Made by a program: the position numbers and the translations under genes. Positions 40,258 through 58,481 of a stretch of 64,000 nucleotides of DNA are shown one piece after another. The stretch spans positions 2,335,001-2,399,000 of the forward strand of contig NZ_JAUFQT010000001.1 in NCBI RefSeq assembly GCF_030409905.1, written 5' to 3'. The notes under the pieces are model-generated. The model made no database searches. It saw nothing but the letters and a program-made list of their open reading frames with translations, and was not told the origin of the DNA. Within the stretch, counting starts at the first letter, position 1. Each line of letters opens with the position of its first letter. Origin of the DNA: Echinicola jeungdonensis (lineage in GTDB: Bacteria; Bacteroidota; Bacteroidia; Cytophagales; Cyclobacteriaceae).

Positions 40258-41022
40258 CTACAATCTTTTGATTTTAATGTTTTTAAACCAAACGGTATTT
40301 CCATGGTCTTGTAGGGCAATTTTCCCCTTTTGATATTGACCAAAACCCTTCATGTCTTTGAATTTACTATTGTCAATTAGGTTTTTCCAGCTTTCATCCC
40401 AAAGGTTAGTTGAAACAGTGTTGACCCCATTGAGGTAAAAATCCAATTTCCCGTCCTTTAGGATGATTTCAGTGTGATTCCATTCGCCAACAGGGTTGGC
40501 TGCTTCCTCGGATGATTCAATTAAATCATATAGGTCCCCTGCCCGGTGTGATTTGATTTTTCCGTCGGGGTGACCATCATTATCCAGGATTTGGTATTCC
40601 AGTCCGGTATTCCAGGGAAAATCAAACTCTTCCGATTCCTGTACCAAAAATATTATCCCGCTATTTCCGTTTTGGGATATTTTCCAATCAATTTTAAAGT
40701 GGAAGTCCTCAAAAGTTTCGTCTGTGACAATGTCACCGCCACCATTGGATTGCCAGTTTTCTTTGTTGGAGGCATCCAGGTATAATACACCTTTTTCAAC
40801 TTTCCAGGCAGGCCCGACTGAGTTTTTGTTATAATTGGTCCAGCCTTCCAGGGATTCACCATCAAAAAGGCTGATCCATTCGCTTTCATTATTGTTGGTT
40901 TGGGCCATTTCAGTTTCCATTTTGACTGTAACTGTATCTTTTTGGCTATCATTTGAATTTGGAGAGCCACATGTGGTGGATAAAATAGCCAAGGTGGTAA
41001 TGGGTATTAAGGTTATTTTCAT
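40258..41022 (-). CDS. DUF1080 / 3-keto-disaccharide hydrolase-like lipoprotein
   Basis: A 254-residue exported lipoprotein: a hydrophobic signal with lipobox ending L-S-T-T-C18, then a polar linker. The concanavalin-like DUF1080 domain begins at WISLFDGESLEGW (about residue 48). Other family marks are WKVEKGVLYL, GGDIVTDETFEDFHFKIDW, SGIIFLV, GLEYQILDNDGH and the ending TVWFKNIKIKRL. Members of this domain family include enzymes that cleave 3-keto-glycosides. Here it ends a minus-strand unit (Gfo/Idh/MocA, TIM barrel, cytochrome c, DUF1080) divergent from the permease-GMC dehydrogenase genes, which supports such a role. The specific substrate is inferred only. Confidence 0.82.
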   Translation of the reverse strand: MKITLIPITTLAILSTTCGSPNSNDSQKDTVTVKMETEMAQTNNNESEWISLFDGESLEGWTNYNKNSVGPAWKVEKGVLYLDASNKENWQSNGGGDIVTDETFEDFHFKIDWKISQNGNSGIIFLVQESEEFDFPWNTGLEYQILDNDGHPDGKIKSHRAGDLYDLIESSEEAANPVGEWNHTEIILKDGKLDFYLNGVNTVSTNLWDESWKNLIDNSKFKDMKGFGQYQKGKIALQDHGNTVWFKNIKIKRL

Positions 41023-41055
41023 GGGTTTTGGTTTATCCTGTTGAAGAAATAGAAG

Positions 41056-41469
41056 TTATTTTAAAAGAAGGATGTATTTGACCATTTTTTTTGCTTCTTC
41101 ATCTGTAAGTCCTGGGTGCTCTGGCATAGGAACTTCTCCCCAATGGCCAACCGAACCTGCGATGACCCTTCCGGCAAGTAATTCAATGTTTTCCTCCGTA
41201 TCTTCATATTTTTCGGCAACATCATTATAAGCTGGTCCCACCACTTTTCTTTCCACTAAATGACATGTGGTACAGTCAGAACCCTTAACAAGAGCAAGCC
41301 CTTCAACATAGGCAGGATTTTCCTCTAAGTTAGGCCCTTCTTCTTCCTGTTGAGTTTCTTGTGTAGTTTGGGTTTCTTCCGTTTCTTTTTTTTCTCCGGA
41401 TCCCCCACAAGCATAAGCCAAGCCTGAAATGGCAATTATGCTGATCATTAATGTTCTGTTGAATTTCAT
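41056..41469 (-). CDS. Lipoprotein mono-heme cytochrome c
   Basis: A 137-residue electron carrier. The signal peptide ends with lipobox G-L-A-Y-A-C21, followed by a Glu/Thr/Gln-rich tether (about 25-50). A class I cytochrome domain has heme motif C-T-T-C-H (66-70), GPAYNDVAEKY, and axial Met in VPMPEHPGLT (about 114). It resembles small c551/c552 carriers. It lies within the putative sugar-oxidation locus, so it is the natural electron acceptor for the GMC dehydrogenase encoded 5-7 kb away; this is inferred from position. Confidence 0.87.
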   Translation of the reverse strand: MKFNRTLMISIIAISGLAYACGGSGEKKETEETQTTQETQQEEEGPNLEENPAYVEGLALVKGSDCTTCHLVERKVVGPAYNDVAEKYEDTEENIELLAGRVIAGSVGHWGEVPMPEHPGLTDEEAKKMVKYILLLK

Positions 41470-41487
41470 AGATGAATTGAGTTATTG

Positions 41488-42549
41488 TTAATTGGTTTTT
41501 ATTCCTAATATTTTTTTGTTCAATTGCCCATCAGCTCCTGCAGAGGCAAAATCATCGAATGATTTTTCGGTTACCCTGATTATTTTTTCTTGGATAAACT
41601 TGGCGCCCTCTTCTGCACCTGCTTCAGGGTGTTTGATAGCACACTCCCATTCCAGCACTGCCCAACCGTCAAAATCATATTGGGAAAGTTTGCTGAAAAT
41701 AGCATTGAAATCTACCTGTCCATCACCAAGAGATCTAAACCTCCCGGCACGGTTGATCCAGCTTTGGAAGCCACCGTATACCCCTTGTTTGCCAGTTGGG
41801 TTAAATTCTGCGTCCTTGACATGGAACATTTTGATCCGGTCATGGTAAAAGTCAATAAATTGTATATAATCAAGGCATTGGAGCAGGAAGTGGCTGGGGT
41901 CATAGAGGATGTTGGCTCTTTGGTGCTGATTTACCTTTTCTAAAAACATTTCGAAAGTCACCCCGTCGTGCAAGTCTTCTCCGGGATGCAGTTCGTAACA
42001 TAAATCTACATTATTTTTATCAAACTCATCTAAAATAGGAAGCCACCTTTTGGCCAGTTCTTCAAAACCCGCATCCACTAAACCAGCAGGCCTTTGGGGC
42101 CAAGGGTACATGGTGTGCCACATTAAAGATCCACTGAAGGTGCCATGTTGGGTAAGTCCCAGATTTTTGGAAGCTTGGGCAGCAAACATCAATTGTTCAA
42201 TTGCCCAGGCAGTTTTGCCTTCAAGGTCCCCCTTTAGGTTTGCTGGGGCAAAGCCATCAAAAAGTTCATTATATGCTGGATTTACTGCCACCAGTTGTCC
42301 TTGAAGGTGGGTTGATAATTCGGATATTTCCAGCCCTGCCTCTTCAACGATACTTTTGATTTCCTCAGCGTAAGATGGGCTTTGTGCTGCCTTTTTCAGG
42401 TCAATTAAGCGTTGGTCCCAGGAGGGGATTTGAACAGCCTTATAGCCTATTTTTTTTGCCCATTGGCATATTGATTTTAAGCTATTGAAGGGAGCTTGAT
42501 CATCAGCAAATTGGGCCAAAAACAGTGCCGGTCCTTTTATGGTTTTCAT
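41488..42549 (-). CDS. Sugar phosphate isomerase/epimerase-like TIM-barrel protein (cytoplasmic)
   Basis: A 353-residue xylose-isomerase-like TIM barrel (AP endonuclease family 2) with no signal peptide. Motifs include KIGYKAVQIPSWD, a Glu in CYELHPGEDLHDG, the metal-site DPSHFLLQ, HVKDAEF, and the C-terminal GWAVLEWECAIK, which supply the usual Glu/Asp/His/Glu metal ligands. Family members isomerise, epimerise or eliminate keto sugars. It is 55 bases downstream of the Gfo/Idh/MocA gene and 18 bases upstream of the cytochrome gene, so they form one operon. Confidence 0.85.
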   Translation of the reverse strand: MKTIKGPALFLAQFADDQAPFNSLKSICQWAKKIGYKAVQIPSWDQRLIDLKKAAQSPSYAEEIKSIVEEAGLEISELSTHLQGQLVAVNPAYNELFDGFAPANLKGDLEGKTAWAIEQLMFAAQASKNLGLTQHGTFSGSLMWHTMYPWPQRPAGLVDAGFEELAKRWLPILDEFDKNNVDLCYELHPGEDLHDGVTFEMFLEKVNQHQRANILYDPSHFLLQCLDYIQFIDFYHDRIKMFHVKDAEFNPTGKQGVYGGFQSWINRAGRFRSLGDGQVDFNAIFSKLSQYDFDGWAVLEWECAIKHPEAGAEEGAKFIQEKIIRVTEKSFDDFASAGADGQLNKKILGIKTN

Positions 42550-42604
42550 TTTTCAGGGTTTTGGTTTATTGTTCAAATAAAGGTAATTCCTTCTTTTTTC
42601 TTAT

Positions 42605-43771
42605 TCATAATTGGAATGGCGTCCATTTCTGGTCAGACTTTCCACTTTTGACCACATTTTCGATAAAAGCCATTCCACGGACTCCGTCTTCTGCTCCCGG
42701 AAAATCCAGAAAATCCGGATCGGGATCCTGATTGGAAATTTTAGCCTGTAGTGTTTTTGCAAAATTGAGGTAGTGGTTGGCAAAGGCTTCCAAATAACCT
42801 TCTGGATGGCCAGCAGGGGTCCTTGAGTTTTTACGGGTTATGGATGACAAATAAGCATGATTTGCCCCTGCCCTGTAAATTCGGTCGGGTTGTTCAGGGT
42901 ATTTGAGTAATAAGGTGTTGGCATCATCCTGTTGCCACTCCAATCCAGCTAAATCACCATAGATTCGGATTTTAATGTTGTTTTCTGCACCTGAAGCCAC
43001 TTGGGATGCCATCAAAACTCCAGAGGCACCATTTTCAAATCTCAACAAAATGGAACCATCATCATCCAGAACCCTTTCTTCCAGGGTGGCCTGAAGGTCT
43101 GCACATAATTTTTCCAATTTAAGCCCGCTGACATACTCAGCAAGATTGAAAGCATGGGTGCCAATATCTCCCATACAACCTGCAATGCCACTTTTGGATG
43201 GGTCAGTTCTCCAGGCAGCCTGTTTGTTCTCGGAAGTATCAAATGATTTCCATAGCCAACCCTGTGGGTATTCTACATAAATTTTTCGGATTTTGCCCAG
43301 TACGCCATTGATGACCAGCTGCCGGGCTTCCTTTATCATGGGGTATCCGGTATAAGTATGGGTAAGACAGAATAACAACCCTGTTTCTTCAATCACCCGG
43401 TTTAGTTCCTTTGCTTCATCATAAGTTAGGGTCATGGGTTTATCCAGCACCACATGAAACCCGCTTTTTAATGCTTTGAGGGCAGGGTCAAAATGGACGT
43501 GGTTTGGGGTTACTATACTGACAAAATCGATGCGTTGATCCTCAGGCAGCTGATTTTCCTTTTCAAACATTTCTTCATAGGAACTGTAAACCCTTTCCTC
43601 GGGTAAATATAATTCCTGGCCAGCTTGTCTTGATTTTTCGGGTTGGCTGCTAAAAGATCCTGCGACCAATTCAATTTGACCGTCCATATTGGCAGCAATG
43701 CGGTGGACGGCTCCAATGAATGAACCTGGCCCTCCGCCTATCATGCCCATTCTAAGTTTACGGTGACTCAT
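42605..43771 (-). CDS. Gfo/Idh/MocA family oxidoreductase
   Basis: A 388-residue NAD(P)-dependent sugar oxidoreductase without signal peptide. The N-terminal Rossmann motif is GMIGGGPGSFIGAVHRI. The catalytic Lys lies in V-L-D-K-P-M-T-L, and the second-domain motif DIGTHAFNLAEYVSG carries the catalytic His. Such enzymes interconvert sugar hydroxyls and ketones, often at C3. It leads the minus-strand unit. The 281-base divergent region to the permease gene probably holds both promoters. Confidence 0.9.
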   Translation of the reverse strand: MSHRKLRMGMIGGGPGSFIGAVHRIAANMDGQIELVAGSFSSQPEKSRQAGQELYLPEERVYSSYEEMFEKENQLPEDQRIDFVSIVTPNHVHFDPALKALKSGFHVVLDKPMTLTYDEAKELNRVIEETGLLFCLTHTYTGYPMIKEARQLVINGVLGKIRKIYVEYPQGWLWKSFDTSENKQAAWRTDPSKSGIAGCMGDIGTHAFNLAEYVSGLKLEKLCADLQATLEERVLDDDGSILLRFENGASGVLMASQVASGAENNIKIRIYGDLAGLEWQQDDANTLLLKYPEQPDRIYRAGANHAYLSSITRKNSRTPAGHPEGYLEAFANHYLNFAKTLQAKISNQDPDPDFLDFPGAEDGVRGMAFIENVVKSGKSDQKWTPFQL

Positions 43772-44052
43772 ATTGATTAAAAATTTTGATGGTTGTTGCG
43801 TTAAATATTTGGTTGTTTATTTTTTTGGAAATAGTTATTTGAGGTTGAGAATATGTAAAGCAAAAGATTTATTTGGTGAAATGCAAAATGCTTATTTGAA
43901 CGGTAAAGCGAGGGTTAAACCATTGGTGAAGCCTATCTCGCTCGTGCTGAAAGGATTAAATTTAATCCAAAAAGGCTGAATTTTAAATATATATTTCCTT
44001 AGTTTGGGGCATTCTTTTATGTAGTTGATTAATAATAAACCTATTAAAACCC

Positions 44053-45288
44053 ATGAGTATAAATACCAAATTTAAATTGTCCCTTATGATGTTCCTCGAA
44101 TTTTTTATTTGGGGAGGGTGGTTTGTGACCTTGGGGCTTTTTTTGGAAAAAAATTTAAATACCACAGGGGCCCAGAGTTCGGCAGCCTTTTCAACTCAAT
44201 CTTTAGGAGCTATCATTGCCCCTTTTATTATTGGGATGATTGCAGATAAATATTTTAATGCAGAAAGGATCCTTGGGATATTGCATATTATAGGGGCAGG
44301 GCTGATGTACCAAATGTACCAAGCTGATAATTTTGCCGCTTTTTATCCTTATGTTTTTGCTTACATGATTGCTTATATGCCCACCCTTGCCTTGGTCAAT
44401 TCTGTATCCTTTAATCAAATGACCAATCCAGAAAAGGAATTCAGTATCATTCGCGTTTGGGGTACCATCGGATGGATTGTCGCCGGCTTATTGATCAGTT
44501 TGGTGTTTGGGTGGGATTCTACCGCAGGAGTAAAGGAAGGCTTGTTAAAAAATACCTTTCTTATGACAAGTATTGCTTCCTTAGTATTGGGGATATATAG
44601 TTTTATGCTTCCCAAAACACCACCAAAAGGGGCAGGAGGGGAGAAGAAATCTGTTTCTGAAATATTAGGATTGGATGCCTTTGCCTTGCTCAAGGACAGG
44701 AATTATTTGATTTTCTTTTTGGCTTCCATTCTTATTTGCATTCCCCTGGCTTTCTATTACCAAAATGCAAGTTTGTTTTTGGGTGAGATTGAAATGAGCA
44801 ATTTGACCAGCAAGATGGCCTTAGGGCAGGTCAGTGAGGTGCTTTTCATGTTGTTGTTACCGGTGTTTTTTAGCAAATTCGGCATCAAAAAGACCCTTTT
44901 GGTGGGAATGTTGGCCTGGGTAGCACGGTATGCTCTTTTTGCTTATGGCAATGTCAATGAACTGTCTTTTATGTTGTTAATAGGAATTGCACTTCATGGG
45001 ATTTGTTATGATTTTTTCTTTGTTTCTGGCCAGATTTATACCGATTCCAAAGCCGGAGTACAAATAAAAAGTGCAGCCCAGGGAATGATCACCCTGGCCA
45101 CTTATGGCGTGGGCATGTTGATTGGGTTTTGGGTAGCTGGAATCGTTACAGATACTTTTATTACGCCTGACAATCTTCATAATTGGGAGGCCATTTGGTT
45201 AATTCCATCAGGGATTGCCATGCTGGTAGCCATATTATTTTTATTGGCTTTTAAAAAAGAAAGAAAACCTGCTGCAGTTACAGCCTAA
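44053..45288 (+). CDS. MFS permease of the nucleoside:H+ symporter (NupG-like) type
   Basis: A 411-residue inner-membrane protein with about 12 hydrophobic helices. The start LSLMMFLEFFIWGGWFVTLG and the segment NQMTNPEKEFSIIRVWGTIGWI are hallmarks of the NupG/XapB-like family that is widespread in Bacteroidota sugar loci. The central cytoplasmic loop lies at about 195-210. In this setting it may import the keto-sugar or its cleavage product and not nucleosides. It begins a plus-strand run continuing with the Tat-exported TIM barrel 14 bases later. Confidence 0.85.
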   Translation: MSINTKFKLSLMMFLEFFIWGGWFVTLGLFLEKNLNTTGAQSSAAFSTQSLGAIIAPFIIGMIADKYFNAERILGILHIIGAGLMYQMYQADNFAAFYPYVFAYMIAYMPTLALVNSVSFNQMTNPEKEFSIIRVWGTIGWIVAGLLISLVFGWDSTAGVKEGLLKNTFLMTSIASLVLGIYSFMLPKTPPKGAGGEKKSVSEILGLDAFALLKDRNYLIFFLASILICIPLAFYYQNASLFLGEIEMSNLTSKMALGQVSEVLFMLLLPVFFSKFGIKKTLLVGMLAWVARYALFAYGNVNELSFMLLIGIALHGICYDFFFVSGQIYTDSKAGVQIKSAAQGMITLATYGVGMLIGFWVAGIVTDTFITPDNLHNWEAIWLIPSGIAMLVAILFLLAFKKERKPAAVTA

Positions 45289-45302
45289 TAATTTTCCAAA
45301 TC

Positions 45303-46172
45303 ATGTCACAAAGAAGATCTGTCCTAAAAAAAATATTAATGGGAGCAACGGCCTTAGGCGGCCTGCCTTATTTGAAATTAAAAGCTAATACCCCTACTAA
45401 GAACATGCTAAAAGGAAATATCAACCACTCAGTATGCAGGTGGACTTTTAACCATCTTTCACTGGATGAACTTTGTTTATTGGTGAAAGATATAGGTTTC
45501 AATGCCATTGACCTTATAGGGCCAGAAGATTGGCCTACAGCCCAAAAGCACGGTGTGTACAGTTCCATGTGTAATGGGGCAGAAATCAGTCTGGAAGAAG
45601 GTTTTAATCATACAGAGTACCATGATCAATTGATAAAAAATTATTCTGAGATGATTCCATTGGTGGCCAAAAATGGTTATAAAAATTTGATCTGCTTTAG
45701 TGGAAATCGTGAAGGGATGGATGATGAGACGGGATTGAAAAATTCTGTCAAAGGCCTCCAGAAATTATTGCCCTTAGCTGAAAAGCATGGTGTTACCCTT
45801 ATAATGGAATTGCTGAACAGTAAAGTGGACCATCCTGATTATATGTGTGATAAAACCCCTTGGGGCGTAGAGCTCTGCAAGCGGCTGGATAATGAAAATT
45901 TCAAATTGCTTTACGATATTTACCACATGCAGATTGATGAAGGGGATGTAATCCGGACCATTAGGGATAATCATCAATATATAGCCCACTACCATACTGC
46001 AGGAAACCCTGGCAGGAATGAGATTTTTGAAGATCAGGAATTGAATTATCCAGCTATCATTAAGGCTATTGCAGATACAGGATTCAAAGGCCATATCGCC
46101 CAGGAATTTATTCCGAAAGCCAATGATAAAGCTACCTCCTTACGTAAGGCTATAAAGCTTTGTGACATTTAG
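45303..46172 (+). CDS. Exported hydroxypyruvate-isomerase-like TIM-barrel protein
   Basis: A 289-residue xylose-isomerase-like barrel preceded by an N-terminal S-Q-R-R-S-V-L-K-K and a hydrophobic stretch (about 10-22), consistent with Tat export. Metal ligands are expected in LIMELLNSK (Glu), LYDIYHMQIDEGD (Asp/His), HYHTAGNPGRNE (His) and HIAQEFIP (Glu). The closest named relatives are hydroxypyruvate isomerases (Hyi), but export and the locus argue for a keto-glycoside lyase or isomerase acting in the periplasm. It is 36 bases upstream of the GMC gene. Confidence 0.82.
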   Translation: MSQRRSVLKKILMGATALGGLPYLKLKANTPTKNMLKGNINHSVCRWTFNHLSLDELCLLVKDIGFNAIDLIGPEDWPTAQKHGVYSSMCNGAEISLEEGFNHTEYHDQLIKNYSEMIPLVAKNGYKNLICFSGNREGMDDETGLKNSVKGLQKLLPLAEKHGVTLIMELLNSKVDHPDYMCDKTPWGVELCKRLDNENFKLLYDIYHMQIDEGDVIRTIRDNHQYIAHYHTAGNPGRNEIFEDQELNYPAIIKAIADTGFKGHIAQEFIPKANDKATSLRKAIKLCDI

Positions 46173-46208
46173 AAATAATAAACCAACCCAATAAACCCAA
46201 TAAATACC

Positions 46209-47888
46209 ATGTCAAATCAAACTTATGATGCCATCGTTGTTGGCTCCGGGATAAGCGGAGGATGGGCTGCAAAGGAATTAACCGAGAAAGGGTTAAAAGT
46301 GTTGCTGCTGGAGCGAGGCAAAAACGTTGAGCATGTCAAGGATTACAAAAATGCTACCACAGCCCCCTGGGAAATCCCTCATAGAGGGAGAAATACGGTG
46401 GAAATGATAGAAAACCACCCCAACCTAAGGAGGGATTATGTACTCAATGAATTGAACCTGGACTGGTGGGCCCATGAAGATGAATCTCCCTATGTGGAAG
46501 AAAAGCCTTTTGCCTGGTTCAGGGGCTATCAGGTTGGTGGCCGTTCGCTACTTTGGGGCCGTCAGAGTTACCGTTGGGCGGATGTTGATTTTGAGGCCAA
46601 TTTAAAACAAGGAATTGCCGTGGACTGGCCAATAAGGTACAAGGATCTTGCCTCTTGGTATGATTATGTTGAAAAATTTGCCGGGATTTCCGGAAATAAG
46701 GATGGCTTGGATGTGTTGCCGGATGGGCAGTTTATGCCTCCAATGGCGATGAACTGTGTGGAAAAGGATGTCAAGGAAAGGATGGAGAAACATTACGAAG
46801 GGAAAAGGCGATTGATCCATGCCCGGATTGCTAATATAACCGAGCCATTGCCCGGCCGTCCAGGTTGCCAATACCGGAATAAATGTTGGTTGGGCTGTCC
46901 TTTTGGTGGTTATTTTAGTACTCAGTCTTCCACTTTGCCAGCTGCGATGGCAACTGGAAACCTTACTTTAAGGCCTTGGTCAATTGTGAATAGGATACTT
47001 TATGATAAAGATACCCAGAAGGCTACCGGCGTAGAGGTTTTGGATGCTGAGACTATGGAAACTATTGAATATAAATCCAAAATCGTTTTCCTCTGTGCAT
47101 CTGCCATTAACTCCGCCCAAGTCCTGATGCGGTCAGCTACGGATATTTGGCCAGATGGCTTGGGCAGTAGCTCAGGAGAGCTGGGACATAATTTGATGGA
47201 TCACCATTTTAGATTAGGTGCCAGTGGAACGGTTGAAGGTTATGATGATAAATATTATTTTGGAAGAAGGCCAGGAGGCATTTATATCCCCAGGTACCGG
47301 AATTTGAATGGAGAAAAAAGAGACTATGTAAGAGGGTTTGGTTACCAGGGCGGAGCCAGTCGAAGTGGTTGGAGCAGAGGGCTGGCAGAAGCCAATATCG
47401 GTGGACCTTTGAAGGAGGCCTTGACTGAGCCAGGACCCTGGAGCATGGGAATGATGGCCTTTGGTGAAATCCTACCCTATCATGAAAATTCCATTAGGTT
47501 GAGTAAAGAGGTGAAAGATAAATGGGGAATGTATGCCTTGGTGATGAATGCGGAAATCAAGGATAATGAAATCAAAATGCGGGAGGATATGAAGAATGAT
47601 GCCGCTGAAATGCTTGAGGCAGCTGGGGTGAAAAATGTTAGTGCTTATGATTCAGGATATACGTTTGGTCAGGGAATTCATGAAATGGGGACAGCCCGAA
47701 TGGGTAGAGATCCCAAAACATCTGTTCTCAATGGCCAAAACCAAGTGTGGGATGCAAAGAATGTTTTTGTAACTGACGGGGCAGCTATGACCTCTTCTGC
47801 TGCACAAAACCCATCATTGACTTATATGGCTTTAACAGCAAGAGCTGCAGCTTTTGCTGTGCAGGAATTAAAAAAAGGAAACCTTTAA
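46209..47888 (+). CDS. GMC-family FAD sugar dehydrogenase, catalytic subunit
   Basis: A 559-residue flavoprotein. The FAD motif VVGSGISGGWAAKELTEKG starts at about residue 10, with VLLLERG after it. GGRSLLWGRQSYRW lies near 110-125. The C-terminal HEMGTARMG and TDGAAMTSSAAQNPS blocks carry the catalytic His and Asn. Cys220, Cys226 and Cys230 (spacing C-x5-C-x3-C, followed by P-F-G-G) resemble the Fe-S region of membrane FAD-glucose and fructose dehydrogenases. There is no signal peptide; export probably depends on the small subunit encoded 12 bases downstream. Family relatives include glucoside 3-dehydrogenase. Specificity is not proven. Confidence 0.88.
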   Translation: MSNQTYDAIVVGSGISGGWAAKELTEKGLKVLLLERGKNVEHVKDYKNATTAPWEIPHRGRNTVEMIENHPNLRRDYVLNELNLDWWAHEDESPYVEEKPFAWFRGYQVGGRSLLWGRQSYRWADVDFEANLKQGIAVDWPIRYKDLASWYDYVEKFAGISGNKDGLDVLPDGQFMPPMAMNCVEKDVKERMEKHYEGKRRLIHARIANITEPLPGRPGCQYRNKCWLGCPFGGYFSTQSSTLPAAMATGNLTLRPWSIVNRILYDKDTQKATGVEVLDAETMETIEYKSKIVFLCASAINSAQVLMRSATDIWPDGLGSSSGELGHNLMDHHFRLGASGTVEGYDDKYYFGRRPGGIYIPRYRNLNGEKRDYVRGFGYQGGASRSGWSRGLAEANIGGPLKEALTEPGPWSMGMMAFGEILPYHENSIRLSKEVKDKWGMYALVMNAEIKDNEIKMREDMKNDAAEMLEAAGVKNVSAYDSGYTFGQGIHEMGTARMGRDPKTSVLNGQNQVWDAKNVFVTDGAAMTSSAAQNPSLTYMALTARAAAFAVQELKKGNL

Positions 47889-47900
47889 ACCCAAAATATT

Positions 47901-48458
47901 ATGGCAATCAATAGGAGAGAAGCATTAAAGCAAATGGTCCTGATGATGGGAGGTACCATGATAGGGGCCAATGCAATATTGACCGGTTGTACCCCAGAGG
48001 AACAAATCGAAGGACTGGATTTTTCCGAAAAGGAAATTGCTTTTTTGGATGAAATTGGGGAAACCATCATTCCTACTACCGATACCCCAGGAGCCAAAGC
48101 GGCAGGGATTGGAGCTTTTATGGTGATGATGGTAAAGGACACCTATAGAAAAGAGCAACAGGAAACCTTTGTAAATGGGCTTAATTCATTGAGAAATGGT
48201 TTTAAAGAGGAAATGGGACGTGATTTTATGGATGGCAGCAAAGAAGAACGGACAGCATATTTGAATAAATTGGCCCATAAGGCTAAGAACATGAAGGAGG
48301 ATGCTCCGGTATACTTTGGCATGCTTAAGGACCTTACCATTCTGGGCTATTTTACTTCTGAGATTGGGGCAACACAAGCTTTACGCTATGTGGAAACACC
48401 AGGAAGGTGGGATCCATGTGTGGATTATAAAAAAGGAGACAGGGCATTTGCTCTATAA
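47901..48458 (+). CDS. Gluconate 2-dehydrogenase subunit 3-like Tat lipoprotein (dehydrogenase small subunit)
   Basis: A 185-residue small subunit of GMC-type dehydrogenases. The N-terminus has a twin-arginine motif N-R-R-E-A-L-K-Q, a hydrophobic stretch, and a lipobox-like A-I-L-T-G-C (Cys29). The gluconate_2-dh3 domain follows (FLDEIGETIIPTTDTPGAKAAGIGAF, given as FLDEIGETIIPTTDTPGA; ending GYFTSEIGATQALRYVETPG and WDPCVDY). Such subunits fold and carry the FAD partner through Tat. Position directly after the GMC gene makes them a pair. Confidence 0.87.
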   Translation: MAINRREALKQMVLMMGGTMIGANAILTGCTPEEQIEGLDFSEKEIAFLDEIGETIIPTTDTPGAKAAGIGAFMVMMVKDTYRKEQQETFVNGLNSLRNGFKEEMGRDFMDGSKEERTAYLNKLAHKAKNMKEDAPVYFGMLKDLTILGYFTSEIGATQALRYVETPGRWDPCVDYKKGDRAFAL

Positions 48459-48465
48459 AGATTTT

Positions 48466-48483
48466 GAGGGTATAAATACCCTC
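48466..48483 (+). other. Short intra-operon hairpin
   Basis: GAGGGTA pairs with TACCCTC across four bases. There is no T run, so it is not a standard terminator. It lies between the dehydrogenase small subunit and the next TIM-barrel gene and could affect mRNA processing or stability. Confidence 0.35.
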
Positions 48484-48511
48484 CAGTAAATCAAGCCTAA
48501 AATAACTTATT

Positions 48512-49411
48512 ATGAACAATAGAAGGAAGTTTCTAAAATTAGGAACATCTCTAAGTCTCGGGGCATTTCTTCCCTTTCAATATTGTAGTTCTGCTGAAAA
48601 AAATAAAACGGTTAAAATTAACCTTAAGGAAGCCGTAGATGGAACCTTGGAACGGATAGGTATCCAGCTGTATTCCGTCAAAGAGGATATGGCAAAAGAC
48701 CCCAAAGGTACTATTGAAAAATTGGCTCAATTTGGATATAATCAGCTGGAAGGTTTTGATGGCGGACAAGGCATATTTTGGGGCATGAATAATACCGACT
48801 TCAAGGCGTTTACAGATGACTTGGGGCTTGACTACGCTGCCTCTCATGCCAATGTTTTTGAAAACTTGGAACAAACAGCTGAACAGGCAGGTGAAATTGG
48901 AATGAAATATTTGATTTGCCCTTATGCAGGAGAGCAAAGTAGTGTTGAAAAATATAAAGAGTTAGCAGTTAAATTCAATCAGGCTGGGGAAGTTTGCAGG
49001 AATAATGGGTTGAGGTTTGCTTATCATAACCATGGTTATACCTTTAAAGAGGTGGAAGGGCAGATTCCACAAGATATCCTCCTAAAGGAGACCGATCCTG
49101 AGTTGGTGGATTTTGAATTGGATATTTATTGGGCGGTGACAGCAGGGGCAGACCCTAATGAATATTTTGAAAAGTACAAAAATCGTTTTCGGTTATGCCA
49201 TGTCAAGGATCGGGAAAAGTCCGCTCCCCCTGAGGAAACTGATGCTTCTATAGTGCTAGGAGAAGGAAGTATTGATTTTCGGGAAATTTTAAGGACGGCC
49301 AAGGAAAGTGGAATGGAATACTTTATTGTAGAACAGGAAAAATTTGATGGATTGTCACCATTGGAGGCTGCGGAAAAAAATGCTACTTATCTAAATAAAT
49401 TAGTTTTCTAA
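48512..49411 (+). CDS. Tat-exported lipoprotein TIM-barrel (sugar isomerase/epimerase-like)
   Basis: A 299-residue xylose-isomerase-like barrel with a near-consensus Tat signal (N-N-R-R-K-F-L-K) and a lipobox-like F-Q-Y-C25. Core motifs are GIQLYSVKEDMAKDP, FAYHNHGYTF, the metal-site FELDIYWAVTAG, HVKDREK and EYFIVEQE. It is the third barrel of this family in the locus, and the second predicted outside the cytoplasm. It is the last gene of the plus-strand run, before a 17-base-pair hairpin at 49586. Confidence 0.85.
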   Translation: MNNRRKFLKLGTSLSLGAFLPFQYCSSAEKNKTVKINLKEAVDGTLERIGIQLYSVKEDMAKDPKGTIEKLAQFGYNQLEGFDGGQGIFWGMNNTDFKAFTDDLGLDYAASHANVFENLEQTAEQAGEIGMKYLICPYAGEQSSVEKYKELAVKFNQAGEVCRNNGLRFAYHNHGYTFKEVEGQIPQDILLKETDPELVDFELDIYWAVTAGADPNEYFEKYKNRFRLCHVKDREKSAPPEETDASIVLGEGSIDFREILRTAKESGMEYFIVEQEKFDGLSPLEAAEKNATYLNKLVF

Positions 49412-49868: not shown

Positions 49869-49871
49869 AAG

Positions 49872-49944
49872 TGATCCCGCTGGGGCTCGAACCCAGGACC
49901 CATACATTAAAAGTGTATTGCTCTACCAGCTGAGCTACGGAATC
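49872..49944 (-). tRNA. tRNA-Lys (anticodon TTT), copy 1
   Basis: Seventy-three bases without an encoded CCA. The acceptor stem GATTCCG pairs with CGGGATC (one T-G), the anticodon loop is CTTTTAA on stem ATACA/TGTAT, and the T arm is CTGGG-TTCGAGC-CCCAG. Identical to the copy at 50281-50353. Confidence 0.97.
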
Positions 49945-49979
49945 GGAAATTAGAGAGGGTACGGAAGACATTCCGCGAG

Positions 49980-50053
49980 TGATCCTGAAAGGACTCGAAC
50001 CTTTAACCTACTGCTTAGAAGGCAGTTGCTCTATCCAGTTGAGCTACAGGACC
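49980..50053 (-). tRNA. tRNA-Arg (anticodon TCT)
   Basis: Seventy-four bases. Acceptor GGTCCTG/CAGGATC, anticodon loop CTTCTAA on stem ACTGC/GCAGT, T loop TTCGAGT. CCA is not encoded. Confidence 0.96.
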
Positions 50054-50083
50054 CGATACTTTGTGATCAAAGTATGAGTGAAG

Positions 50084-50158
50084 TCGGGGTGGCAGGATTC
50101 GAACCTGCGACCTCCTGCTCCCAAAGCAGGCGCGATGACCGGGCTACGCTACACCCCG
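50084..50158 (-). tRNA. tRNA-Pro (anticodon TGG)
   Basis: Seventy-five bases. Acceptor CGGGGTG/CACCCCG, anticodon loop TTTGGGA on stem CCTGC/GCAGG, T loop TTCGAAT. CCA is not encoded. Confidence 0.97.
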
Positions 50159-50280
50159 AAGTAATATTTTTTTCTCCTCTTTTGGAGAATCAATTTTAAT
50201 TCGGCACCTCAATTTTCCCGTAATAGGATGCATTGACCGAAATTTATTATTGGACTTTCTTCCTTTTTGGAAGTCCTTAG

Positions 50281-50353
50281 TGATCCCGCTGGGGCTCGAA
50301 CCCAGGACCCATACATTAAAAGTGTATTGCTCTACCAGCTGAGCTACGGAATC
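50281..50353 (-). tRNA. tRNA-Lys (anticodon TTT), copy 2
   Basis: Identical over 73 bases to the copy at 49872-49944. First gene of the minus-strand tRNA operon. No Bacteroidota-type promoter was confidently found upstream. Confidence 0.97.
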
Positions 50354-52592: not shown

Positions 52593-53918
52593 TTATGGAA
52601 CCTCATATTTAGTTTTGAAAGTGTATCCCATTCTGGCAGTGCTTAAAGTACTTTTGGGTCTAGGTTTAAGAAAACCAATGTCTGGAAGGCTTCCGTCTGA
52701 TTTTCTTGATCGGGTCAACTCTGAAGGGTCAAGGCTAATGAAATCATTGTCTGTGACAGGTATTTCGTTGGGCAAAAATGAATTATTGCTAATTTCACAT
52801 AACCCTTTATTGACATTTGAAATATGTCCCGTCCTCCTGAAATCATGGGAAACATTATTCTTGAGAATATGCTCGTAACCAGGAACATTTACCGCTTCAT
52901 CGACTGATTTCCTGTTCAGCATATTAAAATTAGAGGGGTTTTGATAGCCGGTGTTATTTTCCCATCTAATGCCACCAAGGTGGTGATTGGAATAAAACCC
53001 TTGGTTTAAATTATAATATGCAAGGCAATTTCGGACCACATGCATGGGAATTTTTTCTGGTGGGTCTGGAAATTCTGACATGCCATATCCTCCTGATTTA
53101 AAACCTGCCCCATTGCCTGCCCTCTCAAAAGTACCGGGCTGATAACCATTGTAAAAAGCCCAGCAGTTTTCTATTGTGTATGCGGCATGGGCATTTATCA
53201 AATCAAACCCATCATCGCTGTTATACCATGCCCGACAAGCTCTAAAAACATTACCGGTACTTTCTTGGTTTTTTGGGTGCCCACCAAACCCATCTACATT
53301 ACCACCGACTCCCCCGTCAGAGAGGTAATCGTAATTGTTGTAGGCATCACAGTTGACCACAAGGTTGTCAGCTCCATTTACCAGGTAAAATCCTATTGCC
53401 ATGCCGTCGTGCATGGCCAGGTTTTCATAAATATTGTGATTTCCTCCCTCATTTCTAAAGCATTCGGATTGGGTATGGCCGATTATGGTTACTTGAGTGC
53501 CAACCACTTCAAAATTTTCGAAATGAAGGAAGGAGCCGCTTACATAAAAAACAATAACTCGATTGCCCTCAGGTTTAACTTCAGACAAATCAAATATAGG
53601 CCGTTCACTCCCATAACCTCCATAATAAATACGGTTTGATTCCCCGGAGCCACTTTTATGCATATCAAATACATAGGCCCAGAGTCCATTGTCACTGTAT
53701 CTCATAATTTGGCCCTCAGTGATTTTATAAGTTCCTCCTCGGATGAGAACAGAATCACCTGCAGAAGCTATGGAATGCGCTTTTTTAAGGGTGGCAAAAG
53801 GAGAGGTTTTGGTGCCACTATTTGAATCATCGCCATCAATAGCGATAAAATAGGTTTTTGAAGAAAGAGAAAATGCAGAAAACAATAGTAAAATTGTTAT
53901 TAGATAATGTTTACTCAT
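52593..53918 (-). CDS. Secreted right-handed beta-helix protein, polysaccharide lyase family 9-like
   Basis: A 441-residue exported protein (ATG 53918, signal peptide about 1-20). It has the typical start TYFIAIDGDDSNSGTKTSPFATLKKA and ISG-free parallel helix coils. Key motifs are NCDAYNNYDY, GGNVDGFGGH and SDDGFDLINAH, Asp-rich strands that form the calcium/catalytic site in PL9 pectate lyases, with a Lys-containing AGFKSGGYGM coil. This suggests pectate or related uronan cleavage. It stands alone, with no SusC/SusD, and is flanked by non-coding stretches of about 0.7 and 0.85 kb. An upstream in-frame start at 54005 would add 29 residues before the signal peptide and is not preferred. Confidence 0.8.
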   Translation of the reverse strand: MSKHYLITILLLFSAFSLSSKTYFIAIDGDDSNSGTKTSPFATLKKAHSIASAGDSVLIRGGTYKITEGQIMRYSDNGLWAYVFDMHKSGSGESNRIYYGGYGSERPIFDLSEVKPEGNRVIVFYVSGSFLHFENFEVVGTQVTIIGHTQSECFRNEGGNHNIYENLAMHDGMAIGFYLVNGADNLVVNCDAYNNYDYLSDGGVGGNVDGFGGHPKNQESTGNVFRACRAWYNSDDGFDLINAHAAYTIENCWAFYNGYQPGTFERAGNGAGFKSGGYGMSEFPDPPEKIPMHVVRNCLAYYNLNQGFYSNHHLGGIRWENNTGYQNPSNFNMLNRKSVDEAVNVPGYEHILKNNVSHDFRRTGHISNVNKGLCEISNNSFLPNEIPVTDNDFISLDPSELTRSRKSDGSLPDIGFLKPRPKSTLSTARMGYTFKTKYEVP

Positions 53919-54769
53919 GAGGGTTATTTTTAAGCTATTTGAACCAAAGATTAAAAGTCGAAGCCCCAAAAGGCGGGAGAATGATTTGGGAAGTGTAAAT
54001 CCCATAAAATCAAATGTAATTAATTGATAATCTATGACTATTCTGGAATGTGCTGAAGAAGGGGATGTTTCAAGAATGCTATGGTTTTTTTAGGGAACTT
54101 TAAAATTAAATTAGGTTTTAGGTTGTAGTCCTATTACCATAAAATATAAATGGTGTCGGGTCGGCTTAATTTATAAATTGTACTTTTTGTTTTTATAGGG
54201 TTTAATGGGAATGGTTATTTTCTACTTTTTAAGTAGGTATCAATTTTTAAAATTTGAGTATGGACACTATCTTCCCGGGTGGAGAGCAAAAAGCTCTTCA
54301 GGATCGACATGAGTTGATTCCTTTTTCTCCCGATAGAAAGTATTTTGCCTTTTAAGCCCAAAGGATGGGAACATTCAATATTGGGCTGGAGCTGAAGAGG
54401 GGTGGCCGGGGAAGCGGATAAGTTTGATTGTGATATCATGGTATAAAAAAAAGAAAATATATATGTCCTACCATTGAGCAATATTTGAAAGACATTTCCA
54501 GTATCAAAAAAAGCCTTCGATTTTTTTCTTTCCCAACCGGATTTAGATCATGAAAGTTATTGTGTGGGATGGTATTTTAATGAAACAGATGTTCGTTGTA
54601 TGGTCAGGCTTCATGATTAATGATAGGGAACATTTAATTTGTGGCAGGGCGCATTTGATCCTGTAATTCTTTTTTCAGGATTAGTCAATCTTTTTTTGAA
54701 TTGGTAAACTTATTCGCAGTTAATTTGTATATACATTTGGATATTTACGAATTAATGAACGGATGAATT
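53919..54769. other. Gene-poor region before the nitroreductase gene
   Basis: No gene is supported. A minus-strand frame at 54215-54481 (88 codons) has weak protein character and is not called. A candidate -7 element lies at 54732. Confidence 0.55.
54732..54739 (+). promoter_or_regulatory. Candidate -7 element for the nitroreductase gene
   Basis: TACATTTG matches TAnnTTTG, 30 bases before ATG 54770. A good -33 TTTG at the expected spacing is not seen. Confidence 0.4.
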
Positions 54770-55841: not shown

Positions 55842-57485
55842 ATGGTATTTAACACTATAGACATTGTTGTCTTTGTGGCTTATTGTCTTTTGATTATTAC
55901 CCTGGGGATAGTAGTTTCCCGGGAGAAAAAAGGCCACGTAAAAAATTCCCAGGATTACTTCCTTGCCAGTAAGGCACTTCCCTGGTGGGCAGTAGGAGCC
56001 TCGTTGATTGCTTCCAATATTTCTGCCGAGCAGTTTATTGGGATGTCAGGGTCTGGATTTGCCCTTGGGCTGGCGATTTCCACTTATGAATGGATGGCTG
56101 CAGCAACCCTTTTGGTGGTGGCGATATTTTTCCTTCCCATTTATTTGAAGGAAGGTATTTACACCATGCCACAATTCTTAAACCGGCGTTATGACGGTCG
56201 GGTAAGGACAGTAATGGCAATATTTTGGTTACTAATTTATGTTTTTGTCAACCTTACCTCTGTGCTTTACCTGGGAGCACTAAGCCTTGAAACTATCATG
56301 GGGGTTCCTCTTAACTATGGTATTGCAGGTTTGGCACTATTTGCCATGGTGTATTCCATTTATGGAGGGTTGAAGGCTGTTGCCTGGACGGATGTGGTTC
56401 AGGTTGTATTTTTGGTAGCAGGTGGTTTGGCTACTACATATCTCGCCCTATCGATGGTAGGCGATGGTAGTGTTTTGGACGGTCTTGGCTTATTGAGAAA
56501 GGAAGCACCTAAGCACTTTTCTATGATTTTCGAAAAAGGTGAATTAATGATTCCTGATGGAGTAGGAGGAGAAAGAGATGCTTATTTGGATCTTCCCGGT
56601 ATCAGTGTGCTAGTAGGGGGGATGTGGATAGTTAACCTGAGCTACTGGGGCTGTAACCAATATATTACCCAAAGGGCATTGGCTGCCAAATCCCTAAATG
56701 AAGCCCAAAAAGGGATGATTTTTGCCGGGTTTTTGAAACTTTTGATGCCTGTAATTGTTGTGGTTCCAGGTATTGCTGCTTACGTAATTGTACAACAGGG
56801 TGGAGATTCCTCCTTTATTGATTCCATGACAGATCCAATTACAGGTATGATAAAATCTGACCGTGCATACCCAACCTTGCTTCAGCTGTTGCCTGCTGGA
56901 TTAAAAGGTTTGGCATTTGCAGCATTAACCGCCGCTATTGTTTCTTCTTTGGCTTCTATGGCCAACAGTACTTCCACCATTTTTACGATTGATATTTACC
57001 GTCAATTTATTGATAAAAATGTCCCAGAGGGTATGCAGGTAACTATCGGTAGGATCACCGCGGTAGTGGCCTTTGTCATTGCTGCCATTGTTGCCCCTCA
57101 GCTTGCTACATTGGATCAGGCATTCCAGTATATCCAGGAATACACCGGATTTGTATCCCCAGGGGTATTGGCAATATTCCTTTTTGGCTTCTTCTGGAAA
57201 AAAACCACTTCCAATTCCGCACTGACTGCAGCAGCCTTGACAATTCCATTGTCAGCTTTATTCAAGTTTATTACTCCAAATCTTCCATTTTTGGACAGAA
57301 TGGGACTTGTATTCTTGATTTTAGCTGTTTTGATGGTGATCATGAGTTTAGTTGAAGGAAAAGGAAAAGACAGTGAAAAAGCCATCGAAATCGACAAGGA
57401 ATTGTTCAGCACTAGTTCTAAATTTAAAGTTGGAGCTGTTTTGATCTGTGGAATTTTGATTGCACTGTATACCGTATTCTGGTAA
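55842..57485 (+). CDS. Sodium/solute symporter (SSS family), probably pentose or hexose
   Basis: A 547-residue inner-membrane protein with about 14 helices. Family marks are the N-terminal VFVAYCLLIITLGIVVSRE, GLAISTYEWMAAATLL, the PQFLNRRYDGR loop, the sodium-site AFAALTAAIVSSLASMANST, and the QEYTGFVSPGVLAIF segment. It is of the SglT/xylose-arabinose type. Location upstream of the araC-xylB-xylA group suggests import of xylose or a related sugar. It has a paralog at the right edge (63210-64000). A terminator follows. Confidence 0.88.
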   Translation: MVFNTIDIVVFVAYCLLIITLGIVVSREKKGHVKNSQDYFLASKALPWWAVGASLIASNISAEQFIGMSGSGFALGLAISTYEWMAAATLLVVAIFFLPIYLKEGIYTMPQFLNRRYDGRVRTVMAIFWLLIYVFVNLTSVLYLGALSLETIMGVPLNYGIAGLALFAMVYSIYGGLKAVAWTDVVQVVFLVAGGLATTYLALSMVGDGSVLDGLGLLRKEAPKHFSMIFEKGELMIPDGVGGERDAYLDLPGISVLVGGMWIVNLSYWGCNQYITQRALAAKSLNEAQKGMIFAGFLKLLMPVIVVVPGIAAYVIVQQGGDSSFIDSMTDPITGMIKSDRAYPTLLQLLPAGLKGLAFAALTAAIVSSLASMANSTSTIFTIDIYRQFIDKNVPEGMQVTIGRITAVVAFVIAAIVAPQLATLDQAFQYIQEYTGFVSPGVLAIFLFGFFWKKTTSNSALTAAALTIPLSALFKFITPNLPFLDRMGLVFLILAVLMVIMSLVEGKGKDSEKAIEIDKELFSTSSKFKVGAVLICGILIALYTVFW

Positions 57486-57530
57486 TGTTAACCCGCTTTC
57501 AAGTGCGGATTCCTGAAAAAAATAAAGAAT

Positions 57531-57565
57531 GGATACCTGTCAAATCAGGTATCCTTTTTCTTTTT
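57531..57565 (+). terminator. Rho-independent terminator after the SSS gene
   Basis: GGATACCTG pairs with CAGGTATCC around six bases, followed by TTTTTCTTTTT. Confidence 0.9.
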
Positions 57566-57641
57566 ATGAGAGTTCAAATTCATTATGGAAAAATTCCTGT
57601 CCTTTTTTGGGGAGGTGGTTAAGGCATTCAATATTTAGGAA

Positions 57642-58481
57642 TCAATCATTCAATACCTGCGCCCGGTATGCAGAAGGAGTAATGCCTTTTATTTCTTTAA
57701 ACTGCCTATTGAAATTGGTTATATTTCTATAACCGCAATCATGAAATATCTGAGATACAAAAAGGTTTTTATCCTTAAGTAATTTACAGGCATGAGCTAT
57801 CCGGATTTCCTTTAAGAATTTAGAAAAGGATTTTTTTGTGTTTAACTTAAAAAATCGACGGAAATTTGATTCACTCATTTTGGCCAGCCCTGCAATATCC
57901 TCCAACTTGATGTTTTCTTGAAAATGGTTAAAAGTATATTCCATTATTTCATCAATTATTCCTTTTGAATCAAAAGAATTGATATGCTCATGGGTCAGTA
58001 TGGAGTTTTTGGTTTTAATGCTGATGGAGTTTAAAATAGCCAGTAATCTGGACATGTGGTCAAAGCCTTCTGCATCTTCTAACCCTTTTATTTTTTCAAT
58101 AAGGGAAGTATCAAGCTCATAATTTACAGATAAAGCCTGTTTCAGGTTGATCAATTTTTTGATTTGAGCCAATTCAGGAATATTTAAAAAAGAGTTTCCA
58201 AAAATACTTTTATCAAATTGGATGACAACCACGGTACAAAAAAGGTCCTCGTTTGCCTTTCGAAACCAATGAGGGACATTGGAACCAATGTAAAAAAGGT
58301 CTCCCTCAGAAAATTCCCCGACAAAATCACCTATAATGGCAGTGCCATATCCTTTTTTAATGTATAGGATTTCGTTTTCCAAATGCCTGTGCCAGGGGGT
58401 CTCAAATAAAGGTGTACTAAAGGTGACAGAGACAAAGGACTTAAATTCTTGCTTGGGGAGCTTCTGTACAAAGGGTTTCAT
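57642..58481 (-). CDS. AraC-family transcriptional regulator
   Basis: A 279-residue regulator with an N-terminal cupin sugar-sensing domain (HRHLENEILYIKKGYGTAIIG and a HWFRKANEDLF metal-like segment, about 20-90) and a C-terminal double HTH (about 180-279). The HTH includes IKLEDIAGLAKMSESNFRRFF and VSQIFHDCGYRNITNFNRQFK, ending GITPSAYRAQ. Divergent from xylB across a 202-base region with repeated ATCAAA sites at 58521-58569, so it probably regulates xylB-xylA and perhaps itself. Confidence 0.9.
   Translation of the reverse strand: MKPFVQKLPKQEFKSFVSVTFSTPLFETPWHRHLENEILYIKKGYGTAIIGDFVGEFSEGDLFYIGSNVPHWFRKANEDLFCTVVVIQFDKSIFGNSFLNIPELAQIKKLINLKQALSVNYELDTSLIEKIKGLEDAEGFDHMSRLLAILNSISIKTKNSILTHEHINSFDSKGIIDEIMEYTFNHFQENIKLEDIAGLAKMSESNFRRFFKLNTKKSFSKFLKEIRIAHACKLLKDKNLFVSQIFHDCGYRNITNFNRQFKEIKGITPSAYRAQVLND

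Follow-up and report, generated by a model that had tools for sequence, protein, structure and literature searches.

We examined a 64,000-nucleotide stretch of the Echinicola jeungdonensis genome (RefSeq assembly GCF_030409905.1, contig NZ_JAUFQT010000001.1, positions 2,335,001 to 2,399,000), referred to below as the window, and within it a cluster of nine open reading frames at positions 40258-49411 that is a candidate locus for the oxidative use of glycosides. The nine genes, lettered A to I in order of position, form two divergent runs, four on the minus strand (40258-43771) and five on the plus strand (44053-49411). The initial annotation had given this layout, these ends and a family for each gene, and an open reading frame check and a Pfam scan confirmed all of them, including three xylose-isomerase-like (AP_endonuc_2) barrels. 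Export signals were judged by eye on the protein sequences, for the window genes and for distant copies alike. Lipoprotein-like signals are seen in A and B, a twin-arginine signal in F, a twin-arginine signal with Cys30 in H, and a twin-arginine signal with a Cys in I, while none was seen in C, D, or G. No glycoside hydrolase (GH) or SusC/D family was found among the nine genes by the Pfam scan. The initial annotation had suggested on this ground that the route may be "hydrolase-free", which is accurate for 40258-49411 and not for the organism, as 36 SusD and 5 GH3 matches lie elsewhere in the genome; the organism thus has hydrolases and SusC/D-type systems as well, and this locus is only one of its routes.

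Gene C (41488..42549, minus strand), the barrel TIM1, is a predicted cytoplasmic 2-hydroxy-3-keto-glucal hydratase. It matches PDB 8ro4, titled "2-hydroxy-3-keto-glucal hydratase", over its full length (E 2.2e-167, 560 bits), its residues E186 and H188 (an ExH motif), D217, H243, and E300 are kept in all 56 rows compared, and it is 67.4% identical to a protein on an Agrobacterium plasmid (L096). Hydration by C is supported by this close similarity to a solved hydratase. Adjoining it is D (42605..43771, minus strand; PF01408 and PF22725), a Gfo/Idh/MocA oxidoreductase that matches PDB 3v5n ("Oxidoreductase", E 1.4e-113) and is 47.0% identical to the Gfo protein beside the hydratase on the same Agrobacterium plasmid; D would act as a cytoplasmic 3-keto-glucose reductase. 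The same proteins could be read as inositol or polyol catabolism, with the barrels as inosose dehydratases, D as inositol dehydrogenase, and the GMC protein as a polyol dehydrogenase, given the matches of TIM1 (67.6 bits) and TIM3 (gene I, 65.5 bits) to TIGR04379 IolE and of D (56.7 bits) to TIGR04380 IolG. However, these scores fall far under the curated cut-offs of 290 and 355 bits, whereas C scores many times higher against the glucal hydratase, and IolB, IolC, and IolD are absent among the nine genes. On scores and gene content we rejected the inositol reading, which we regard as very unlikely.

For the cleavage of the glycosidic bond, the locus offers two exported candidates. I (48512..49411, plus strand), the barrel TIM3, is predicted from its PDB matches and a motif to be a 3-keto-glycoside beta-eliminase. 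It matches 8tcd, 8tcs, and 8tct (E 2.5e-31 to 9.5e-29) and the eliminase 8bvk (E 1e-14), and residues H172, H174, D204, H230, and E274 are present in 55 of 55 rows and in all five distant copies linked to a GMC gene. The active site of the eliminase AtOGE is described as His132, the catalytic His134, Asp163, His189, and Glu233 (Bitter et al. 2023, PMC10628242). I carries the same type of His-x-His, Asp, His, and Glu set, with the correspondence drawn from motif order and sequence match, and elimination by I is supported by this active-site-level similarity to a characterised enzyme. The second candidate, A (40258..41022, minus strand; PF06439, 3keto-disac_hyd, E 2.5e-50), is a member of the DUF1080 or 3-keto-disaccharide hydrolase family whose lipoprotein-like signal contains Cys18 (judged on the window protein alone), and it is predicted to be an envelope 3-keto-glycoside lyase or hydrolase. 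Its best PDB row is 4jqt (E 1.6e-40), with 8rr2, a "3-keto-disaccharide hydrolase domain-containing protein", at E 2.3e-38, and residues E142, Q144, D147, H151, D153, H159, Q238, D239, and H240 are identical in 44 of 44 rows. By its family, A may also act by elimination.

The third barrel, F (45303..46172, plus strand; TIM2), is an epimerase- or isomerase-like member of AP_endonuc_2 and is probably an exported 3-keto-sugar epimerase. The eliminase 8bvk lay outside the 50 VIA rows listed for F, an absence that does not itself point to differing folds. The initial annotation had placed cleavage in the envelope and named TIM-barrel proteins among the possible cleaving enzymes, a role that suits TIM3 as a likely eliminase but not TIM1, a hydratase without a signal, nor TIM2, which is exported but epimerase-like. 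Its broader scheme of oxidation and cleavage in the envelope, followed by uptake and reduction in the cytoplasm, holds in outline, with export signals on the cleaving enzymes I and A, but its chemistry does not: cleavage is most likely beta-elimination, and the hydratase step had been missed.

Oxidation is assigned to G, H, and B. G (46209..47888, plus strand; PF00732/PF05199) is the large subunit of a GMC flavodehydrogenase and a predicted glycoside 3-dehydrogenase. C220, C226, C230, and N534 are identical in 81 of 81 rows and H491 in 80 of 81; G is a GMC member with His491 and Asn534, features from which regioselectivity is not readable. Its best PDB matches are the large subunits of fructose and glucose dehydrogenases (E 1.8e-33 to 2.1e-31), and of the four cysteines in the loop of fructose dehydrogenase it keeps three, the second position being Gln221 in every one of the 81 rows. 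H (47901..48458, plus strand; Pfam E 4.6e-37) is a Gluconate_2-dh3 small subunit and the predicted export partner of G. The two best VIA rows for H are chain B of fructose dehydrogenase, while Foldseek alone was uninformative. In this enzyme class the twin-arginine signal of the small subunit serves both subunits in export, so G is expected to be exported although it has no signal of its own. The predicted electron acceptor is B (41056..41469, minus strand; PF00034, Cytochrom_C, E 2.4e-08), a single-haem c-type cytochrome of 137 amino acids with one CxxCH motif (C66, C69, H70); this motif and C21 are identical in 42 of 42 rows.

The pairing of a GMC large subunit with a small subunit resembles the membrane fructose dehydrogenase of Gluconobacter and the FAD glucose dehydrogenase (6a2u). 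The cytochrome subunit of fructose dehydrogenase has three haems, whereas B is small with one haem, and the locus has no multi-haem subunit. LacABC of Caulobacter likewise combines a GMC protein (LacA) with a cytochrome (LacB) and a small subunit (LacC), and a named control search in Caulobacter vibrioides returned PF13618 and PF06439 matches. The E. jeungdonensis genome holds two GMC matches (100% and 33% identical to G) and two Gluconate_2-dh3 matches. The second GMC gene (L002, C1:2078558-2080276) lies with a longer Gluconate_2-dh3 subunit (237 amino acids) and, by eye, an SGNH-type esterase-like lipoprotein; it is included in the gene counts per locus, made over 81 loci, and left out of the motif rows.

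Uptake would fall to E (44053..45288, plus strand; PF03825, E 1.2e-117), a NupG-type (Nuc_H_symport) permease of the major facilitator superfamily that is predicted to import a keto-sugar or glycal. The family of E, together with that of H, which is named for gluconate 2-dehydrogenase, raises the idea that the locus oxidises nucleosides or sugar acids with a gluconate-2-dehydrogenase-like complex. Against the NCBIfam nucleoside permease, however, E scores 379.6 bits, under the cut-off of 446.1, and in the loci of two Rhodobacterales, Palleronia and Ketogulonicigenium, sugar ATP-binding cassette (ABC) transporter genes stand in the place of E, which has no match there. Nucleoside hydrolase, kinase, and phosphorylase are likewise absent among the nine genes, and the nucleoside reading, rejected on these scores and this gene content, has very little chance of being correct.

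The link between the flavodehydrogenase and the hydratase was followed across the order. We surveyed 148 of its genomes, using plain genome counts, with a hydratase threshold of E<=1e-30, an F threshold of E<=1e-50, and a strong GMC match defined as E<1e-100, a limit set after viewing the table, in which a gap runs from 8.8e-196 to 6.6e-30. A strong match to G is present in 57 of the 148 genomes and the hydratase in 74, with one match each; the hydratase accompanies strong G in 56 of 57, and 73 genomes have neither gene. Twenty-five genomes with a weaker GMC match were counted as without, and three of these (genomes G051, G079, and G103) have the hydratase. Genome G065 is the sole strong-GMC genome that has no hydratase at this threshold. 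F is present in 47 genomes, all with the hydratase and 44 with strong G. As a control we took isocitrate dehydrogenase, a patchy and unrelated neighbour, for which the hydratase was found in 8 of 19 genomes (odds ratio 0.69, p 0.62).

A scan with G as query gave at least 595 confirmed stretches, of which 80 named loci were used. The stretches fetched were at most about 22 kb and many were ended by the contig, with 39 of the 80 at full length (at least 21 kb); two titles, Williamsia (L020) and Beijerinckiaceae (L034), look misnamed and are counted among the 80. Seven or more of the nine genes occur in 51 of the 80 named loci and all nine in seven, and on this conservation we rejected chance clustering of the nine genes. 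Most titles are Bacteroidota (Algoriphagus, Hymenobacter, Chitinophagaceae, Pedobacter, and others), and three are Alteromonas. The closest named relatives among the matches listed are two species of Echinicola (a genus of Cyclobacteriaceae, Cytophagales) with 88% identity for G. Conservation of the gene set across Cytophagales, which the initial annotation had put forward as a check, is thus borne out there and beyond, and its C3-oxidation type of glycoside route gains support from families, conservation, and co-occurrence.

In two Alteromonas loci (L064, L075), D, C, E, F, G, and H lie on one strand with a DUF1080 gene whose product is 25-26% identical to A. Judged by annotation, each of the nine gene types is present in the clusters on plasmids of Hymenobacter (L098) and Xanthomonas sacchari (L095), though Xanthomonas sacchari has no match to the window's own A or B. 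The plasmids of Palleronia (L097) and Ketogulonicigenium (L094) hold most of the gene types; in neither stretch is a cytochrome annotated, and that of Ketogulonicigenium also has neither DUF1080 nor F. Across the plasmid loci, identity to the window proteins is 67-71% for G, 61-71% for C, 57-66% for F, 52-58% for E, and 25-38% for I. Conservation is thus strongest in G, C, and F and variation greatest in the lyases, which fits the argument, as far as the source presents it, that the eliminase sets the substrate range (PMC10628242), although D varies too. The I-like barrel beside G has the five-residue set (HHDHE) and a signal in all five distant loci (L064, L094, L095, L097, L098), and no signal was seen by eye in distant copies of C (6 rows) or D (3 rows). 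The Agrobacterium plasmid L096 has no G in its stretch and carries a barrel with the same five residues and no signal; this barrel is eliminase-like by motif alone, since BLAST did not match it to I, and the motif is absent from a second barrel at that locus. The Hymenobacter plasmid cluster adjoins SusC/D and a GH65 gene. On a Gemmatirosa plasmid (L099), two tandem G-like GMC genes (67% and 65% identical to G) occur with an I-like barrel at 32% identity, and no C, D, or F match was found in the stretch fetched.

The idea put forward in the initial annotation has already been published (Bitter et al. 2023, PMC10628242; Price et al. 2022, PMC9007349). In Agrobacterium tumefaciens, the four-step chemistry is described for the GlycDH operon, with AtOGE, AtHYD, and a Gfo reductase (Bitter et al. 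2023, PMC10628242). By that description, and with the sequences compared here coming from a different Agrobacterium plasmid locus (L096), the window shares with the GlycDH operon the C3 oxidation by a flavoenzyme (predicted here), a TIM-barrel eliminase (likewise predicted) whose metal residues are of the same type, a hydratase, and a Gfo reductase. Genes of the window that go beyond the operon as described are those for a DUF1080 protein, the epimerase-like barrel F with its twin-arginine signal, a c-type cytochrome, and a NupG-type permease, and the window's predicted eliminase has an export signal. The levoglucosan pathway LgdA/B1/B2/C also proceeds, in the account given, by oxidation, elimination, hydration, and reduction (Kuritani et al. 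2020, PMC7676230). It shares the same four steps with our reading and differs in its anhydrosugar substrate. D itself scores far under the NCBIfam cut-offs for BT_2158 and BT_2159 (36.3 of 750 and 18.9 of 650 bits). The BT2157-BT2160 operon of Bacteroides thetaiotaomicron is said, in 2024 work in Nature and Angewandte, to act on 3-keto-glycosides with DUF1080 and TIM-barrel enzymes, and oxidation there is reportedly by NAD-dependent Gfo/Idh enzymes; the oxidant of the levoglucosan pathway is likewise reported to be of the NAD type.

A different account of these genes makes the cluster a lactose or galactoside locus like Caulobacter LacABC. The DUF1080 protein would then hydrolyse a 3-keto-disaccharide to free hexoses in the periplasm, elimination and hydration would play no part, and the barrels would only process 3-keto-galactose. 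In the published description, clusters of LacABC, DUF1080, a transporter, two epimerases, and a reductase occur in Caulobacter, where lacABC and the DUF1080 gene CCNA_01705 are important for growth on lactose and where the transporter, epimerase, and reductase genes lie upstream of lacB; similar clusters are described for Halomonas, Algoriphagus, and Indibacter, Bacteroidetes included, and in Pedobacter fitness data show phenotypes for a putative lactose dehydrogenase (Price et al. 2022, PMC9007349). The window carries the same parts by gene list as described, its dehydrogenase genes being accompanied by DUF1080, a transporter, a sugar reductase, and two barrels of epimerase-like type. However, C is a hydratase-family protein, and a hydratase that nearly always accompanies the GMC gene would be needless in a purely hydrolytic route; I has an eliminase-type active site, and the published hydrolase assignment rests on fitness data and family. 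The same paper leaves open the fate of the keto-sugar. Because of the hydratase, we keep the hydrolysis-only role of DUF1080 as a rival, improbable though not negligible, and prefer elimination followed by hydration.

Several results weigh against the preferred route of oxidation, elimination, hydration, and reduction. G reaches only about 113-120 bits to its closest solved relatives, which oxidise fructose and glucose at positions other than C3, and its family and neighbours are what suggest that it may be a C3 oxidant. No match to B was found in the three Alteromonas loci, Palleronia, or Ketogulonicigenium, and conservation across the plasmid loci is only moderate for D (30-62%) and H (34-46%), with A at 22-25% or without a match. 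In the survey, the hydratase occurs without a strong GMC match in 18 genomes, 4 of the family's 11 genomes have no F (E<=1e-50), and the co-occurrence statistics ignore the kinship of genomes. G and the hydratase lie within 20 kb in just 16 of 56 genomes (18 of 56 within 30 kb), among the 150 GMC matches listed and with contigs often short, so the link holds even with the genes apart and most genomes show no joint locus. In addition, Price et al. (2022, PMC9007349) propose hydrolysis for DUF1080, and in the results presented there none of ten Pedobacter DUF1080 genes has a lactose phenotype.

The locus is flanked on the left by panB and a monomeric isocitrate dehydrogenase gene and on the right by four tRNA genes (49871-50353, minus strand), two of them Lys(TTT). 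A promoter and terminator scan gave counts close to those of shuffled sequence (21 against a mean of 25.1, and 13 against 12.2), so it is uninformative on co-expression. Farther right, a right-handed beta-helix protein of a Pel9A-like family (52593-54005, minus strand; E 8.1e-118) has a weak C-terminal match to the BT_4170-like rhamnogalacturonan lyase (E 2.4e-07) and may be a pectin lyase encoded close to the nine genes, and 55842-58481 holds a sodium:solute symporter (plus strand) followed by a cupin-domain regulator of the AraC type (minus strand). PF06439 occurs at nine places in the genome; two of the eight outside the locus (L086-L093) stand side by side in reading frames of equal length, one with an in-frame TGA.

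Taking together gene content, signals judged by eye, homology, conserved residues, and co-occurrence, we consider it highly probable that the locus serves glycoside utilisation by oxidation, beta-elimination, hydration, and reduction, with a respiratory flavodehydrogenase as the oxidant; its substrate would be a glycoside. G, exported by twin-arginine translocation with H, would oxidise the C3 hydroxyl of the glycoside sugar in the periplasm, and its electrons would pass to the cytochrome B. The exported I, probably on beta-linked substrates, and A, possibly on alpha-linked ones, would next cleave the glycosidic bond eliminatively, which would set free the aglycone and leave a 2-hydroxy-3-keto-glycal. 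The permease E would import the glycal or a keto-sugar, C would add water to the glycal in the cytoplasm to give a 3-keto-sugar, and D would reduce this with NAD(P)H to an ordinary hexose, while the exported F probably epimerises 3-keto-sugars. A more specific version, which we offer tentatively and would not yet bet on, is that the compartments are split: the exported lyases would eliminate the bond outside the inner membrane, the reactive 2-hydroxy-3-keto-glycal itself would be imported (by the NupG-type permease, or by a sugar ABC importer in Rhodobacterales), one single-copy cytoplasmic hydratase would serve several unlinked flavodehydrogenase modules, and the exported TIM2 3-keto-sugar epimerase would widen the range of accepted sugars.

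The kind of system is already published, and the Echinicola locus is a complete example of its widely shared respiratory version; among the matches listed by our literature search, the locus in Echinicola-like bacteria was undescribed except for the clusters of Price et al. (2022). What we add, from sequence comparison, is the proposed assignment of a hydratase and an eliminase in a Bacteroidota cluster, the putative division of steps between compartments, and the finding that, in the genomes examined, G is nearly always accompanied by the hydratase. For such Bacteroidota clusters we propose elimination and hydration rather than plain hydrolysis, with each gene given a step and a compartment. 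In the genomes examined, a flavodehydrogenase family common in the order is almost never found without the single-copy glucal hydratase. If the proposal is true, the hydratase would be a useful genome marker of non-hydrolytic glycoside use, and the question arises whether cells transport the reactive glycal as a metabolite and perhaps even exchange it.

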